This document shows, piece by piece, positions 23,601 through 47,219 of a stretch of DNA of 64,000 nt. How positions within the stretch are numbered: position 1 is the stretch's first letter; each line of letters starts with the position of its first letter. The stretch covers positions 308,501-372,500 of the forward strand of contig DLUH01000001.1 of assembly GCA_002742845.1 (NCBI GenBank), in the 5' to 3' direction. The translations under genes were made by a program, and so were the position numbers. The notes under the pieces were generated by a model, which did no database searches, was not told where the DNA came from, and worked only from the letters and a program-made list of their open reading frames with translations. Source of the stretch: Sulfurovum sp. UBA12169. Its GTDB lineage: Bacteria; Campylobacterota; Campylobacteria; Campylobacterales; Sulfurovaceae.

Positions 23601-25805
23601 TTAAAATTTAACCTGCACACCAAAAGTAAATATTCTACCCTCATTGACTACGATAGACATATCTTCTCTATCATAATCTCCATCAGCATCGCTGTCTTGA
23701 TATGCTCTTGCGGTATTATAATACTCTTTATCAAAAAAGTTATCCACTCTTGCATAAATGCTTGTATCAAGCCCATTGATTTTTGTGTCATACGCTATAT
23801 TGAGATTTGCTACGGCATGCCCTGGGATCTGAATCCAGTTAAGTTCATCAACATAATAGGTTGAGATCGCATCAATCTCAGGGGAGATGGTAACATTTTC
23901 GTTGAACTTATAGTTCATGGCAAAATTCAAATGATGTTTGGGTACTCGAGGCACTTCATTGCCTTTAAGGTCATAATGCTCAATCGTGTAAGTACCCCAA
24001 GGATTACCCAAAAGCAGATTGAAATTATCATATTTTGTAAAAACCGCATCCGTGTACGTATAGGCCACATTGCAAGAGAGTGTTTCAGAAATATCACTAT
24101 ACAAAGCCAGCTCTAAACCTTGACTGCGCATACCGCCTATATTTTGAAACTGGCTGTTTATTTCATCTTCTGAAGCATATTGGCCTGAAGAAGACATAAT
24201 GTAATCATCCCTTTCTATCCTGAAAAGACCGGCTTCGTAAGAGAAATTTTTACCCCAAACAGCACTTGTTCCTCTCACGCCGATATCAACACCTTTGGAT
24301 TCTTCAGGTTTTAAATTGGGATTACTGTCAGTTCCGCCTGTCGGGTCTATATCTCCATAAAAAAGCTGCTCTATGGACGGAGCCCTAAATCCTGTAGAGA
24401 AAGAGGTATAAAAGGTAGTATGGTCATTGAGCTGCTTGTTGAGTCCTGCACGGTAAGAGTACTGATTAAAACTTTTATCAAGCGATAATGTATTCAAATA
24501 GTCAAGATAATCCAATTCAATTTTGTCATACCTAAGGTTGGTTGTCAACGTCCATGTGGGAGTGAGGGCATATTTGTATTCGCCGTAAATCGCATAAACG
24601 CTTTCATCGGTGGTGCTGTCTCCCGTTACGGTACCCGCCTCATAATCCGTCCACGTTTTGGTTCTGCGATTGTATGTTGACCAATCCACGGCATAAGAAG
24701 TTTTATTGTCGTATTCGTTTTTCCGAAGATCTACACCGACCATATACGCAGACTTGTCAAAAGAGTCTCTGAATTCACTCTTGATCCCTCGTTGTATCTG
24801 TTCGTATTCATTGTAGTTTGGTTTATAGCTGGGATCGGTCACCGGGTTATGATCACCGTCATAGTTGGCATATGCACTATAAAAATTGGTGTCATCGCCG
24901 TATTGGTAGACGTTCACAAGAAGGTTTTTGTTTTCATCGAAGTTTTTGGCATAAGTTGCAAACATTTTTAACAGTTTCACATCATACATTGCCGAGTAGT
25001 CACGCACCCCGTCGTTGCCTACAGTCCATATACTTTCAGGATTTATCTCAGCTTCGGTTTCTCCCGTTACGGTACCGTGAGAATTTTTTTCTCTGTCCGA
25101 ATATTCAAATCCTGCAGTGATGTCGCTGGTGTCATCTAAATAATATTGAACCTTCCCGTTGATATAGTCTGTTTTGTACTCAGAATCTTCATAAAAGCCC
25201 TCTTTTTCACGCTTGCTTGCTTGGATGTATGCATTATAGTTATCTTTAGAAACGCCGTATTTTGCCAGATATTTATTGTATCCGTAGCTTCCCGATTCTA
25301 TTTCAAATTTTCCCCCGGCATTTTGTGCGCCTTTTTTGGTTGTGATGATCACGGCACCTGAGAGTGCATCATCCCCAAACAAATAACTCGCTCCGCCCTT
25401 GATCACTTTTATACTTTCAATATTGTCCAGATCGATATTCACACGGCCTGTTCTTTCAAATACGGGTACACCGTCAATCACGATAGCAACACCGGGCTTT
25501 TCTCCCATAAAACGCTGGTTCTCCACTCCTCTGATGTGTATCTTAAGAGAGTCGCCGCTCTGTATCTCTGTGGTAACACCGGGAATTGCCTGCAAGATTT
25601 TTTGAATATTTTCTGCCTTGCTCTCCTCTACTTTTTCTCCGCTGACCGTAGCAACGGATGACGGTTCATTTTTTTTTGATTCGATTTTGTCATCTATGGT
25701 TGTAGACTCAACCTGAATCGTTCCCAAATCCGAAGTTTCTGCATGAAGGGCCATTAAACCAAAAATCATACTAGAAACAACAACACTGATCTTTTTGTTA
25801 TACAT
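23601..25805 (-). CDS. TonB-dependent outer membrane receptor
   Basis: 734 residues. Signal peptide 1-22 (ending LHA). The plug domain (about 45-165) has ENIQKILQAIPGV, IHIRGVENQRF, IVIDGVPV and ESIKVIKGGASYLFGDDALSGAV. The rest is a 22-strand barrel with GFRAPSIEQLF, NLKPEESKGVDIG and a C terminus ending VQVKF, with the aromatic final residue needed for insertion. Likely ligand an iron chelate or another metal complex; the best clue is a Fur-like palindrome upstream. AAAAGGAG precedes the ATG. The 5' untranslated region is highly structured (separate entry). Confidence 0.95.
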   Translation of the reverse strand: MYNKKISVVVSSMIFGLMALHAETSDLGTIQVESTTIDDKIESKKNEPSSVATVSGEKVEESKAENIQKILQAIPGVTTEIQSGDSLKIHIRGVENQRFMGEKPGVAIVIDGVPVFERTGRVNIDLDNIESIKVIKGGASYLFGDDALSGAVIITTKKGAQNAGGKFEIESGSYGYNKYLAKYGVSKDNYNAYIQASKREKEGFYEDSEYKTDYINGKVQYYLDDTSDITAGFEYSDREKNSHGTVTGETEAEINPESIWTVGNDGVRDYSAMYDVKLLKMFATYAKNFDENKNLLVNVYQYGDDTNFYSAYANYDGDHNPVTDPSYKPNYNEYEQIQRGIKSEFRDSFDKSAYMVGVDLRKNEYDNKTSYAVDWSTYNRRTKTWTDYEAGTVTGDSTTDESVYAIYGEYKYALTPTWTLTTNLRYDKIELDYLDYLNTLSLDKSFNQYSYRAGLNKQLNDHTTFYTSFSTGFRAPSIEQLFYGDIDPTGGTDSNPNLKPEESKGVDIGVRGTSAVWGKNFSYEAGLFRIERDDYIMSSSGQYASEDEINSQFQNIGGMRSQGLELALYSDISETLSCNVAYTYTDAVFTKYDNFNLLLGNPWGTYTIEHYDLKGNEVPRVPKHHLNFAMNYKFNENVTISPEIDAISTYYVDELNWIQIPGHAVANLNIAYDTKINGLDTSIYARVDNFFDKEYYNTARAYQDSDADGDYDREDMSIVVNEGRIFTFGVQVKF

Positions 25806-25823
25806 ATACTCGCTCCTTTTTAT

Positions 25824-25950
25824 CGCAAAAGAGGAACAAAAGTAATCTTTTTATGGTATACTAAAAATGTTACATTTTGCGATGTAATGGGTGTTTGTTC
25901 GTATCTTTTCTATTGGCGTAGGAATACGAACAAGCCTCTTTTGCGTCAAA
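25824..25950 (-). promoter_or_regulatory. candidate riboswitch-like structured leader of the TonB receptor mRNA
   Basis: Read on the minus strand, the leader from about 25949 folds into a junction. P1: CGCAAAAGAGG (complement of 25935-25945) with CCTCTTTTGCG (complement of 25824-25834), 11 perfect pairs. P2: TTGTTCGTAT with ATACGAACAA (25924-25933 with 25895-25904), 10 perfect pairs around a 19-base loop. P3: TTACAT with ATGTAA (25882-25887 with 25870-25875). P1 and P2 nearly abut. The P1 3' strand ends about five bases before the ribosome site. I see neither the B12-box nor TPP, Moco or other core I know. Confidence 0.6.
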
Positions 25951-25955
25951 TAGTC

Positions 25956-26001
25956 TATATAAACTTTGTTAATTTTTTGTTAATTAATCATTATGATTAA
26001 T
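25956..26001 (-). promoter_or_regulatory. promoter with Fur-box-like palindrome
   Basis: ATTAATCATTATGATTAAT (25983-26001) is a nearly perfect palindrome resembling a Fur box of the GATAATGATAATCATTATC type. A minus-strand -10 candidate TATATA (25956-25961) would start the receptor mRNA near 25949, exactly where the P1 stem of the leader begins; the palindrome then covers the -35 area. It could also influence the plus-strand gene at 26072. Confidence 0.5.
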
Positions 26002-26689: not shown

Positions 26690-28294
26690 ATGTCCTACGA
26701 AATACTCATCCCAGCCATCATTAAAGGATTTGGAGGTTTAGGATTGTTTTTGCTGGGTATGGTCATAATGACAGAAGGGCTGCGCTCATTGGCCGGAGAT
26801 ATGATCAAAAATGCGCTCATGCGTTTTACCAAAAGCCCCTACTCAGGCGCTTTAACAGGCACCATTAGCACCATCCTGCTGCAATCCTCCAGCGCAACCA
26901 CTGTTATGGCGGTCGGTTTTGTCGGGGCGGGTTTGATGAGCTTTCCCCAGGCATTGGGCATTATTTTCGGAGCCAATATCGGATCTACGGCAACGGGTTG
27001 GCTGGTGGCGCTGTTTGGATTGAAATTTAGCCTCTCTTCTATTGCAATGCCGCTTATTTTTTTAGGGGTCATCGGCAAGCTTTTCTTTAAAGGCAAAGCT
27101 GCGTCGTTTGGCTACGCCATAGCCGGATTTGGATTGATTTTTGTAGGCATTGCTTCCCTGCAAGAAGGAATGGGCCATTTTGAAGGCATCATCAGTCCCG
27201 AACATTTATCTTCAGGTTCTTGGGCAGGAAGCATAAAACTCGTCCTACTTGGTATTGCCGCAACGCTTATCACGCAAGCTTCCAGTGCGGGTGTTGCTGC
27301 TACGCTTACAGCGCTTTATTTGCACACCATCAATTTCGAGCAAGCAGCAGCTCTTGTTATCGGGATGGATGTCGGGACAACGGTCACAGCTGTACTCGCT
27401 TCGATCGGGGGCTCTGCAAGTGTTCGCCAAACAGGCCTCTCTCATGTGATATACAATTGTCTTACGGCGGTCATGGCGCTTTGTTTGATTGCTCCCTATG
27501 TATTTTTTCTTGAAACAATCAATCCTTCTTTTTTAGAGACGCATGCCGAGATAGCGCTTGTGGCGTTCCATACTTTCTTTAACACATTGGGGGTTTTGCT
27601 TATTCTTCCTTTTGCCAAACAGTTTGCTGCCCTGATGGAAAAGATCATAAAATCCGAAGAACCGCCGTTTACAAGAAGACTGGATAAGCAACTGCTTAAA
27701 GAACCCTCTCTTGCATTGGAGGTTGCACGCATCTCAATCGAAAGAGAGTTTGTAGCGCTTCTTGAGCATATCAATTTTATTTTAGGGGATTTCGCCTGCG
27801 GCAAAAGAACGGATTTGATCTCACTTCAACTCTCTTTGGATGAAACACAAGAGTATGTCGATTCGATCAAAATCCAGCCCAAAGAGGTTCACGAATGGCA
27901 GCGGATGGTTTTTCTTGCGCATCTGCTTGACCATTTGCAGCGTCTTCACGAAAGATGTGACGAAGATGCAAAAAGAGCCCACTATGCCGCTTCTTCGATG
28001 AATTTACAGGAAGAACGTAACGGTTTTTGTGCAAAAAATGAAAAAATTATAGAAGCGATTACTTCAAAAAACTTCTCGCTGGCAACCAAATACGCCAAAG
28101 AAAGCAACGAAACAATCAATAATGCTATCGAGCCTTTTAGGGAATTCATAGCTACCAAAATAGCCGAAGACAAAATCGATATTCCCGAAGGAAACCAACA
28201 GCGAGAGGCCATCAAATGGATCTCCCGCGTCAGTACTCATATTTGGCGCATCGCCTACTATCTGGAGCGCACCGTCATGGAAACGGTAAACTGA
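26690..28294 (+). CDS. Na/Pi cotransporter family protein with PhoU-like tail
   Basis: 534 residues of the NptA/PNaS family. Two inverted repeats of the transport core are seen, with QSSSATT (about residue 65) and TQASSAGV (about 196), the paired Gln-Ser motifs of this family, and GANIGSTATGW and GMDVGTTVTA. The last 200 residues are soluble and helical, rich in charged residues, and resemble PhoU. Likely sodium-driven phosphate uptake or phosphate signalling at the inner membrane. Starts three bases after the DUF2238 gene. Confidence 0.92.
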   Translation: MSYEILIPAIIKGFGGLGLFLLGMVIMTEGLRSLAGDMIKNALMRFTKSPYSGALTGTISTILLQSSSATTVMAVGFVGAGLMSFPQALGIIFGANIGSTATGWLVALFGLKFSLSSIAMPLIFLGVIGKLFFKGKAASFGYAIAGFGLIFVGIASLQEGMGHFEGIISPEHLSSGSWAGSIKLVLLGIAATLITQASSAGVAATLTALYLHTINFEQAAALVIGMDVGTTVTAVLASIGGSASVRQTGLSHVIYNCLTAVMALCLIAPYVFFLETINPSFLETHAEIALVAFHTFFNTLGVLLILPFAKQFAALMEKIIKSEEPPFTRRLDKQLLKEPSLALEVARISIEREFVALLEHINFILGDFACGKRTDLISLQLSLDETQEYVDSIKIQPKEVHEWQRMVFLAHLLDHLQRLHERCDEDAKRAHYAASSMNLQEERNGFCAKNEKIIEAITSKNFSLATKYAKESNETINNAIEPFREFIATKIAEDKIDIPEGNQQREAIKWISRVSTHIWRIAYYLERTVMETVN

Positions 28295-35446: not shown

Positions 35447-35521
35447 TGTATTTCATTATGATAGGATTGTCAATAGAAGATAAAGTCTACTTTTCCCAAC
35501 TCCATAAAAGCACCAATACGC

Positions 35522-35527
35522 TATAAT
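35522..35527 (+). promoter_or_regulatory. candidate -10 box for valS
   Basis: TATAAT, 36 bases before the valS ATG, in the divergent region. No clear -35. Confidence 0.5.
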
Positions 35528-35563
35528 CCAGGCAATACTATAACCTACAAATGGAATATACCT

Positions 35564-38218
35564 ATGAGTGAAACAACAAAAAAAGCTGTCTACAACCCAA
35601 AAGAAATAGAGGAACACTACTATAAAATCTGGGAAGAACGCGGTTATTTTGAAATTGACGGAAACCGTAACATACAAGAACCGGATAAACATTTTGCCAT
35701 CATGATGCCCCCGCCAAACATCACCGGAAGCTTGCATATCGGCCATGCCCTAACCTTTACGCTGCAGGATATTATCACACGCTATAAAAGAATGGACGGT
35801 TTCAAGACCCTTTGGCAGCCCGGTACCGATCATGCGGGTATCGCTACACAGAATGTCGTGGAAAAACATCTTTTGGCCGAAGGAACTACCAAAGAGGCGC
35901 TCGGCAGAGAGGCATTTTTGGAGCGTGTCTGGAAATGGAAAGAGTACTCAGGCGGAACCATCGTACATCAGATGAGAAAACTCGGCGTCTCTCCGGCTTG
36001 GTCAAGAGAGAGATTTACGATGGATGAGGGTCTTAAAGAAGCGGTTAAAGAGGCTTTCGTTCACCTCTACAATGAAGGGATGATCGTCCAGAACAACTAT
36101 ATGGTCAACTGGTGTACGCATGACGGCGCCCTTTCAGACATCGAAGTCGAACATGAAGAAGTTAACGGCAAATTCTACCATATGAATTACCATTTTGCCG
36201 ACGGAAGCGGATATGTCACGGTTGCAACCACAAGGCCGGAGACTTACTTTGGCGATACCGCGATCATGGTAAATCCCAACGACGAGAGATACAAAAACAT
36301 CATAGGCAAAGAGGTTGTCTTGCCGCTGACGGATAGAAAGATCAAGGTCATTGCAGATGAGCATGTCGATATGGAATTTGGAACGGGGGTCGTGAAAGTC
36401 ACGCCTGCGCACGACCAGAACGACTACGAAGTCGGAAAAAGACATGATCTTGAGTTCATCACCGTATTTGACGAGAAAGGCATCCTGAATGACTACTGCG
36501 GCGAATTTGCAGGGATGGAGAGGCTAAAAGCCAGAAAGCCGATCGTAGAGAAATTGGAGCGTGAAGGATTTATCGTCAAGATCGAAGAGCATGTCCATCA
36601 GGTCGGCCACTGCTACCGGTGCAAAAACATCGTCGAACCGTATATCTCCAAACAGTGGTTTGTACGCAGCGAAGTGGCAAAAAAAAGTATCGAAAAAACC
36701 TATGCAGGGGAAGCGAAGTTCCACCCGCCGCATTGGCTCAATTCTTACCGTGCATGGATGGACGAACTCAGAGACTGGTGCATCTCCAGACAGCTTTGGT
36801 GGGGACACCGCATCCCTGTATTTTACTGCGACGACTGCGGTCACCAGTGGGCAGACAAGCATGACGCTCCTGAATCCTGCCCGCACTGTGCAAGCAAAAA
36901 TATCCATCAAGACCCCGATGTGCTCGACACATGGTTCTCCTCGGCCCTTTGGGCTTTCTCTCCGCTTGGCTGGGGAAATAACGGAAAAATGGCCGATACT
37001 TACAATGATACAGATCTGAAAGATTTCTACCCCAACTCGCTGCTGATCACGGGGTTTGACATCATGTTCTTCTGGGTGGCAAGGATGATGATGATGGGTG
37101 AACACTTTATGGGAGAATTGCCGTTTAAAGATATCTATATGCACGCGCTTGTGCGCGACGAGTACGGGGCCAAAATGAGCAAGTCCAAAGGAAATGTCAT
37201 CGATCCTCTGGATATGGTCGAAGAGCACAGTGCAGATATCATCCGCTTTACCCTCGCATTCCTTGCAGTTCAGGGACGCGATATCAAACTGGGCGCGAAG
37301 AACCTTGAACAGTTCAGAAACTTCACCAACAAGCTTTACAATGCAAGCAACTTCCTGCAGATGAATGTAGATAAGTTTAATGATCTTGCTGATACGAAAA
37401 TTGAAACACCCCTTGGTCATTATATGCAATATAGATTATCTCTTGCAGTTGAAGAAATGAGAGATGCTTTGGATTCATATCGTTTTAATGATGCTGCTTC
37501 AATCCTCTACAGATTTGTATGGAATGAGTTTTGTGACTGGGGAATAGAATACTCCAAAGCCTCTAAAGAGTCTATTCCTGAACTTGGAGCTATCTTTAAA
37601 GAAACTTTGAAAATGATCTCACCGTTTATGCCATTTATTGCAGATCATTTGTATCATAAATTGAGTGGGACTTCATTGGAAGAAGGTGAATCTTTGATGA
37701 TAAAAAAATTTCCTAATGATATCCATAGAACAATAATTTATGATAATCTCTTTTCACATATTGAAGAGGCGATTACTGCTATTAGAAGAGCAAAAGTTGT
37801 TATCGATATGGGTAACAGCAAAATAGCTAAAGCATATATCAAATCAAATCTTATAAGCAATGACCCAACAAAATTATTTAGTATTCAAACTGTAAAACCA
37901 TTTATCCAAAAGCTTGCAAAAGTTGAAGATGTTGAGTTGGTTGATACGAAAGTAGAAAATGCTGTTACTGATATTGCAGATACTCTTGAAGTCTATATTC
38001 CGACCGAGGATATCGATCTAAGCGCCATCATAAGCAAACTGGCCAAACAAAAAGAAAAATTGGATAAAGAGATCGCCAAACTCAGCGGCATGCTCAACAA
38101 TGAAAGATTTGTAGCCAATGCCCCCGCGCAAGTGATCTCAGAGAACAAACAGGCACTTCAGGACGCTCAGGAAAAGATGGATAAAGTCAAAGCAGAGCTT
38201 CAAGGACTTGGTGCATAA
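35564..38218 (+). CDS. valS: valyl-tRNA synthetase
   Basis: Charges tRNA-Val. 884 residues, normal length. HIGH motif in PPPNITGSLHIGHAL (about 50-64), the editing domain in the middle (TTRPETYFGDTA, GTGVVKVTPAHDQND), GTDHAGIATQ, KMSKS at 537-541, an anticodon-binding domain, and the C-terminal coiled coil (LAKQKEKLDKEIAKL). The ORF is intact. Base use changes inside the gene: about half G+C to about 37,360, near one third from about 37,370 to 37,990, then higher again. This looks like replacement of the anticodon-binding part by homologous recombination with a relative (see finding). Confidence 0.97.
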   Translation: MSETTKKAVYNPKEIEEHYYKIWEERGYFEIDGNRNIQEPDKHFAIMMPPPNITGSLHIGHALTFTLQDIITRYKRMDGFKTLWQPGTDHAGIATQNVVEKHLLAEGTTKEALGREAFLERVWKWKEYSGGTIVHQMRKLGVSPAWSRERFTMDEGLKEAVKEAFVHLYNEGMIVQNNYMVNWCTHDGALSDIEVEHEEVNGKFYHMNYHFADGSGYVTVATTRPETYFGDTAIMVNPNDERYKNIIGKEVVLPLTDRKIKVIADEHVDMEFGTGVVKVTPAHDQNDYEVGKRHDLEFITVFDEKGILNDYCGEFAGMERLKARKPIVEKLEREGFIVKIEEHVHQVGHCYRCKNIVEPYISKQWFVRSEVAKKSIEKTYAGEAKFHPPHWLNSYRAWMDELRDWCISRQLWWGHRIPVFYCDDCGHQWADKHDAPESCPHCASKNIHQDPDVLDTWFSSALWAFSPLGWGNNGKMADTYNDTDLKDFYPNSLLITGFDIMFFWVARMMMMGEHFMGELPFKDIYMHALVRDEYGAKMSKSKGNVIDPLDMVEEHSADIIRFTLAFLAVQGRDIKLGAKNLEQFRNFTNKLYNASNFLQMNVDKFNDLADTKIETPLGHYMQYRLSLAVEEMRDALDSYRFNDAASILYRFVWNEFCDWGIEYSKASKESIPELGAIFKETLKMISPFMPFIADHLYHKLSGTSLEEGESLMIKKFPNDIHRTIIYDNLFSHIEEAITAIRRAKVVIDMGNSKIAKAYIKSNLISNDPTKLFSIQTVKPFIQKLAKVEDVELVDTKVENAVTDIADTLEVYIPTEDIDLSAIISKLAKQKEKLDKEIAKLSGMLNNERFVANAPAQVISENKQALQDAQEKMDKVKAELQGLGA

Positions 38219-46432: not shown

Positions 46433-46523
46433 AAAAGATTATACATTAAAATTGTATTTACACTATTTATTTTTTGTATCTATCTTCAAAAAAATCAATT
46501 TTTTATATACAAGCTACTAATTG

Positions 46524-47219
46524 TTATATAAAAAATAGATTTCTAAAATTTTTTGCTCCGTCTTTGCTTGATTCAACTTTATCGGTTATATCATGAAAGA
46601 AAAAACACAACTTGCTCTGTTCGATAGTTTTTATCTCTTTGATTTTATCAAGATTGATCAAATAAGAACGATGTATCCGTACAAAATTATAGGCTGCAAG
46701 CTTTTTTTCGAGATCAGATATTTTTTGCGTACAATACGAAAACCCTTTCGACGAACGCAAAACAACTTCCGTAAGATCTGCCTTGATATAATAAATCTCT
46801 TTGGGATCAAGAAGATAATAACTCTCTCCTGCTTTGCTCATCAGTCTAAAGGTTGTATCATTTTTTCTTTGCGTATTAATGCGCTCAATATTGTTTTGCA
46901 ACTGCTGGATACTGTAAGGCTTAACCAGATAGCCTGCTGCACCAATATCAAAGGCCTTTAGTGCATGTTCGCTGTAAGCCGTTTGAAAAATAATGGCAAG
47001 ATCTGTTCGGTGATAGCGAAGCTCATATCCAAGTTCAAGGCCGTTTGTTTGCGGTATATTGATATCAAGCAGCACAAGATCAAAATGAAATTGCCTCACA
47101 AGATCAACTGCCGCCTCGGCGGTTTCACACTCTACAATATCCATATAGCCAAGAGTATTAAGCATTCTTTCAAGCCGGGCCAATGCCAACATTTCATCAT
47201 CTACGATGAGTATTTTCAT
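46524..47219 (-). CDS. LytTR-family response regulator
   Basis: 231 residues from the ATG at 47219 (GGAGG five bases upstream). The receiver has D8/D9, phospho-acceptor D52 (LVLLDINIP) and Lys in GYLVKPYS. The C-terminal LytTR domain (about 125-231) has YYIKADLTEVVLRSSKG and FVRIHRSYLINLDKI, the beta-type DNA-binding fold. It overlaps the kinase gene upstream by 23 bases, so the pair is a LytS/LytR-like system. The C terminus EIKTIEQSKLCFFFHD is a little divergent from the usual end of the domain. Confidence 0.94.
   Translation of the reverse strand: MKILIVDDEMLALARLERMLNTLGYMDIVECETAEAAVDLVRQFHFDLVLLDINIPQTNGLELGYELRYHRTDLAIIFQTAYSEHALKAFDIGAAGYLVKPYSIQQLQNNIERINTQRKNDTTFRLMSKAGESYYLLDPKEIYYIKADLTEVVLRSSKGFSYCTQKISDLEKKLAAYNFVRIHRSYLINLDKIKEIKTIEQSKLCFFFHDITDKVESSKDGAKNFRNLFFI

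Follow-up and report, generated by a model that had tools for sequence, protein, structure and literature searches.

A conserved, structured leader of a TonB-dependent receptor mRNA in Sulfurovum: a putative translational, riboswitch-like RNA with a hairpin loop inverted among close relatives

The mRNA leader of a TonB-dependent receptor gene from the sulfur-oxidising Sulfurovum sp. UBA12169 is a conserved, structured RNA of no known Rfam family. The reading preferred here, to which a probability of about 0.5 is assigned, is that of a cis-regulatory RNA of an undescribed family, translational and riboswitch-like in its design, that would be ON when its closing helix P1 forms and whose ligand-binding role is putative. 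The leader lies on the minus strand of a 64-kb stretch of DNA (the window); positions are given in plus-strand coordinates (Table 1).

P1 comprises 11 perfect pairs and P2 10 perfect pairs enclosing a 19-nt loop; both helices, as given in the preliminary description, are present in the sequence as well as in the minimum-energy fold. The third helix of that description, P3, exists as a helix of six pairs (UUACAU/AUGUAA) that is kept in L007, with a compensatory change, and in the remote copy L109; it is broken by A.C mismatches in L006 and L008 and competes with a longer arm beginning GCAAAA/UUUUGU (P3b), which displaces it in the minimum-energy fold while P1 and P2 are retained. The P3b pairs (GUAAAAG/CUUUUGC) are retained in L007, L008 and L221. 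P3 and P3b share bases: either they would represent alternating forms, or the downstream UUUUG would pair with the P3 loop as a pseudoknot. The minimum free energy of the 155-nt leader was −37.4 kcal/mol compared with −20.35 ± 3.56 kcal/mol for dinucleotide shuffles (z = −4.79), none of 200 of which was as good. A leader peptide was rejected as a candidate: an upstream ORF is conserved in none of the leaders, and by eye the window shows just an ATG with an immediate stop.

Table 1. Positions of the receptor gene, its promoter region and the leader elements in the window (plus-strand coordinates).
Feature	Position	Strand	Remarks and basis
19-bp perfect palindrome ATTAATCATTATGATTAAT, Fur-like	25983-26001		intact in the window only
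Direct repeat TTAACAAAAAATTAACA, 11-bp period	25967-25983	-	presumed OmpR/PhoB-type activator site
-10-like TATATAGACT (presumed)	25951-25962	-	after the direct repeat in the window and L004-L008; by eye
P1 5' strand CGCAAAAGAGG	25935-25945	-	Shine-Dalgarno mimic near the presumed transcript start, pairs with 25824-25834; sequence, fold and covariation
P2 hairpin, UUGUUCGUAU / AUACGAACAA	25895-25933	-	arms 25924-25933 and 25895-25904; covariation
P2 loop UCCUACGCCAAUAGAAAAG	25905-25923	-	exact reverse complement in G037, G034 and G588/L069
Linker between P2 and P3	25888-25894	-	conserved; relatives read ACACACA (alignments)
Local hairpin P3, UUACAU-CGCAAA-AUGUAA	25870-25887	-	25882-25887 with 25870-25875; loop conserved as CGNAAAA
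GCAAAA, 5' side of alternative arm P3b	25875-25880	-	overlaps the P3 loop; minimum-energy fold
UUUUGU, 3' side of P3b or pseudoknot partner of the P3 loop	25836-25841	-	minimum-energy fold
P1 3' strand CCUCUUUUGCG	25824-25834	-	doubles as anti-Shine-Dalgarno, can pair with AAAAGGAG; fold and covariation
Shine-Dalgarno AAGGAG	25813-25818	-	6 nt beyond the end of P1; ATG at 25805
TonB-dependent receptor gene, 734 aa	23601-25805	-	Pfam Plug and TonB_dep_Rec_b-barrel

The earlier statement that the leader matches no known family held up in the cmscan that had been proposed as its check: in the 64-kb window and in seven relatives no Rfam family reached the gathering cut-off, and at permissive settings the leaders of the window, L007 and L109 yielded only sub-threshold, unrelated matches. 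The known riboswitch classes of Rfam (cobalamin, TPP, Moco and others) were rejected on this ground, since the gathering cut-off was not reached in any scan. The compensatory changes in P1 and P2 that had likewise been proposed as a check are present across the orthologous leaders: among nine distinct sequences 95.2% of the P1 and P2 cells were paired and 17 of the 21 pairs exhibited two-sided changes, whereas none of 500 shuffles matched the observed values on any of five covariation measures and slid registers paired at 40-56%. The rows of L065 and L109 were aligned by hand, which raised the pairing counts in their favour; without these two, 139 of 147 cells pair. The leader thus displays the conserved, covarying secondary structure expected of a riboswitch within an mRNA leader, although covariation in short perfect hairpins is by itself insufficient proof of an RNA function. 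Conservation is not confined to the helices: the P2 stem of L109 departs from that of the window at several pairs, whereas the CUACGCCAAUAG-AA loop, the ACACACAUUACA linker and the AUUAUAACAU segment are largely retained, and within Sulfurovum the inner pairs of P1 are almost invariant, whereas P2 drifts. Conserved unpaired stretches amid drifting stems constitute an aptamer-like pattern.

Orthologues of the receptor, with identities of 96 to about 40%, were found in Sulfurovum, other Campylobacterota, Zetaproteobacteria and others. The same leader precedes those of G037 (L004/L063), G034 (L005/L064), L069 (identical in sequence to G588), G029 (L006), G051 (L007) and G036 (L008), and a diverged version is present on a further Sulfurovaceae contig (L065); by eye it was not seen upstream of L009-L016, L066 and the zetaproteobacterial orthologues. 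Covariance searches with a model of seven leaders (R1) in 399 genomes of the order recovered the sampled leaders plus one remote copy in G309 (E = 1.7e-7 per genome); a second model (R2), searched over the 78 genus genomes, added a leader of G036 on a second, paralogous receptor (L221), where the upstream repeat is present as well. No further leaders were detected in 175 genomes of the family, nor in 135 genomes of the genus of G309. The distribution of the leader is narrow (seven of the 78 Sulfurovum genomes), and most receptor orthologues are devoid of it; both points weigh against the preferred reading. Low-scoring R1 matches (L110-L134) and L217 were rejected, most of them on scores alone. 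A mobile element was likewise rejected: there was no plasmid match, the two-part pattern was unmatched in viral contigs and one copy was found per leader; the 15-mer loop alone was too short to be informative in viral contigs.

Upstream of the leader, a -10-like TATAGACT would place the presumed transcript start near the 5' end of P1; a generic sigma-70 scan detected no promoter on the minus strand. The receptor orthologues L004-L013 and L016 have the direct repeat TTAACA-N5-TTAACA in their upstream regions, as does the L221 paralogue, and L014/L015 have a near match; the repeat or a near match to it thus accompanies the campylobacterotal orthologues L004-L016 irrespective of the presence of the leader. 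The genome contains seven exact copies (L085-L091), which precede, among others, this receptor, exbB (ExbB2), tonB, a cytochrome c and a copper-type TonB receptor (best NCBIfam match: TonB-dependent copper receptor, below cut-off). With one mismatch allowed, a reversed control pattern was equally frequent; therefore, the exact copies alone carry weight, and these possibly mark a shared regulon. A reading of the repeat as Pho box, prompted by the divergent Na/Pi transporter, was abandoned in view of the copies in front of exbB, tonB and the copper-type receptor. The Fur-like palindrome, proposed earlier as a second layer of control, does exist in the window; it is degraded in close relatives and missing from L006-L008, and a Fur box as a conserved layer of the orthologous promoters was consequently rejected.

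The P1 3' strand CCUCUUUU has a double complementarity: it can pair either with the P1 5' strand AAAAGAGG or with the Shine-Dalgarno region AAAAGGAG. The gap between P1 and the Shine-Dalgarno sequence is 6 nt in the window, L004-L008 and L069, 5 nt in L221 and 16 nt in L065. In the predicted ground state (37 °C) the Shine-Dalgarno sequence is mostly free in eight of the nine leaders; L065 hides it by default. If the P1 5' strand was blocked in silico, accessibility decreased in all eight of these leaders: the unpaired probability of the Shine-Dalgarno sequence fell from 0.91 to 0.08 in the window and from 0.87 to 0.00 in L006, with a partial effect in L007 (0.90 to 0.66), and L065 was closed either way. 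According to the models, the leader thus possesses mutually exclusive folds that act on the Shine-Dalgarno sequence, and the earlier suggestion that the fold could gate translation gains in silico support from the triad of P1, anti-Shine-Dalgarno and Shine-Dalgarno.

In the proposed mechanism, P1 would be the closing helix, in which the extreme 5' end pairs with the stretch immediately preceding the Shine-Dalgarno sequence, with the P2 hairpin and its conserved loop inside and a third arm with conserved loops completing the fold. With P1 closed, the Shine-Dalgarno sequence would be free and the receptor translated (ON); with P1 open, the anti-Shine-Dalgarno strand would pair with it and translation would stop. 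As transcription yields the P1 5' strand ahead of the Shine-Dalgarno sequence, the ON state would be favored unless something holds P1 open. The conserved unpaired segments are the candidate binding site, whose most likely ligand would be a small molecule or an ion related to the import function of the receptor. Switching in cells, its ON/OFF direction and a ligand as its driver are all three points that we infer from predicted folds and sequence comparison. If the leader senses a ligand, it would represent a new riboswitch class in Campylobacterota that points to the substrate of the receptor.

The same folds could also be those of a leader that merely stabilizes the transcript, P1 burying the 5' end and so shielding the mRNA from 5'-end-dependent decay in the absence of any sensing and the anti-Shine-Dalgarno pairing being a by-product of a P1 strand that resembles a Shine-Dalgarno sequence. 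This explanation, which we regard as rather unlikely, is consistent with P1 beginning close to the presumed transcript start in every leader and with P1 being the ground-state fold that leaves the Shine-Dalgarno sequence free in all leaders except L065. However, the conserved loops and linkers beside drifting stems would be unnecessary for a plain stabilizer, and in L065, where the closed Shine-Dalgarno sequence is the default, the P1 5' strand, the P1 3' strand and the Shine-Dalgarno sequence have changed jointly.

What a simple cis-riboswitch model chiefly leaves unexplained is the orphan copy in the Sulfurimonas-like genome G309 (L109 1501-1661; G309:C1:50178-50338). It occupies a gap of 155 bp between a gene of the cytochrome type, unmatched in 25 relatives in an empty-site comparison, and a convergent GGDEF gene, and has no gene to regulate; the receptor orthologue of G309 is located on another contig and possesses a short leader that lacks the element. 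The orphan has retained the conserved loops and exhibits a sequence that is promoter-like by eye (TTTACG-N16-TATAAG) and a U-rich end; it could represent a relic or a small RNA in its own right. The divergence of P1 in this gene-less copy, like the near invariance of the inner P1 pairs in Sulfurovum, is expected if the P1 3' strand has the Shine-Dalgarno sequence as its second partner. The orphan also lends some weight to an explanation that appears doubtful overall, namely that the conserved P2 and P3 loops serve protein binding or small-RNA targeting, the module occurring as a free small RNA in G309; against this, a generic promoter and terminator scan of L109 found neither.

The P2 loop has undergone an unusual change: in G037, G034 and G588/L069 its 19 nucleotides are the exact reverse complement (19/19 nt) of the loop in the window. 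The orientation of the window is also present in L006, L007, L008 and L109 and, less clearly, in L221 (L065 cannot be called); hence the more distant relatives contain orientation A and three of the four close ones orientation B. When the window and its relatives were scanned for collinear matches on opposite strands, one other clear case emerged besides the P2 loop: a hairpin at 46492-46542, with a loop that is inverted in G588. This second hairpin is perfect, AT-rich and terminator-like, and matches the opposite strand of G588 with 94% identity over 51 nt. As two of the nine perfect hairpins of the window (arms of at least 10, loops of 8-40) are flipped in at least one relative, a general mutational process is favored, and a template switch during replication is likelier than a dedicated switch. 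In RNA hairpins, template switching is documented as a source of both compensatory change and loop inversion; the inverted loops described are typically of 4 nt, some of 7-8 nt, and compensatory changes together with an inversion are extremely rare (PMC8794818). With its exact reverse complement between perfect arms, the flip of the P2 loop most probably arose as a mutation, by template switching during the replication of a perfect hairpin. The number of inversion events is not claimed, in view of recombination and conflicting topologies: of the eight flanking genes compared, four, like the receptor itself, group the window with G037 and the others place it elsewhere, the receptor tree does not settle the branching, and the topologies conflict among the four close genomes. 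In the regions 26690-28294 and 35477-38215 the window is closest to G034 instead of G037, at odds with the neighbouring genes, which is a sign of recombination between close Sulfurovum lineages.

A loop that is conserved elsewhere but inverted in three relatives suggests that it is dispensable or altered in the latter; the chance that the flip matters functionally is small. It is quite improbable that the P2 loop is an invertible on/off switch (phase variation) of the RNA or, in the form of a new riboswitch-like family, that it is reversibly inverted in the DNA with single cells making two sensor versions. The exact 19-nt inversion between perfect arms, the distribution of the two orientations and those flanking genes that pair the window with G037, which would require two events, are compatible with such a switch. 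We know of no recombinase for a 19-bp segment. Moreover, the second inverted hairpin loop in the same clade is unlinked to the receptor gene, the tree is blurred by recombination, and template switching accounts for the flip (PMC8794818). Very improbable, too, is a DNA hairpin that is kept perfect by template switching without any RNA function: compensatory changes and inverted loops are what this process generates (PMC8794818), and flips occurred at two hairpins here; however, the P1 arms, about 100 nt apart, covary as well, the Shine-Dalgarno sequence covaries in L065, the placement from promoter to Shine-Dalgarno and the gap of 5-6 nt are retained, and the loops are conserved in distant copies. 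Least probable of all is an RNA thermometer on the Shine-Dalgarno sequence, in spite of the AU-rich helices nearby and of the thermoregulation by RNA described for iron-acquisition genes (PMC3660397), because the predicted ground state, computed at 37 °C, leaves this sequence free in all but one leader, opposite to a Shine-Dalgarno sequence hidden in the cold.

In the preferred reading of a ligand-responsive leader, the ligand would most likely be linked to the substrate of the receptor. The receptor remained below the cut-offs of the NCBIfam siderophore and heme subfamilies, and its nearest solved chains were those of PqqU/YncD, a weak match. Orthologues elsewhere neighbour exbB-exbD-tonB, a DUF4198 protein and a 4Fe-4S membrane protein; together with the genes that share the direct repeat, these neighbours make a metal or metal complex a plausible substrate. 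In L065 (4243-6229), L073 (4230-6201) and L068 (2580-4470) the receptor is followed by the DUF4198 and 4Fe-4S (Fer4_5) membrane protein genes, which in some relatives come after exbB-exbD-tonB and are missing beside the receptor of the window.

Among known systems, the flip of the P2 loop resembles the homoplastic hairpin-loop microinversions of chloroplast genomes, in which close relatives differ in the orientation of a short loop flanked by inverted repeats; here, a loop flip among close relatives affects a bacterial chromosome and a conserved regulatory RNA. With the RNA hairpins ascribed to template switching (PMC8794818) it shares the perfect arms and the exactly inverted loop, and differs by the 19-nt length of the loop, its location in an mRNA leader and the second flipped hairpin in the window. 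Whether or not it senses a ligand, the leader is a clean natural example of a hairpin loop inverted within a conserved regulatory RNA, and it illustrates how template switching could keep stems intact through compensatory changes and yet flip a conserved loop. An anti-Shine-Dalgarno strand shared by P1 is a general design of translational riboswitches, to which the leader corresponds in its mutually exclusive P1 and anti-Shine-Dalgarno/Shine-Dalgarno helices beside an aptamer-like junction; in contrast to these, it is restricted to a few Sulfurovum leaders and one orphan, and its ligand role is putative. A further counterpart is the btuB cobalamin riboswitch of E. coli, likewise a structured leader of a TonB-receptor mRNA, and the Sulfurovum leader would similarly act on translation initiation (compare PMC11162775). 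Unlike btuB, it possesses no cobalamin core and no Rfam match in any scanned member, and in the Sulfurovum leader a closed P1 would mean ON.
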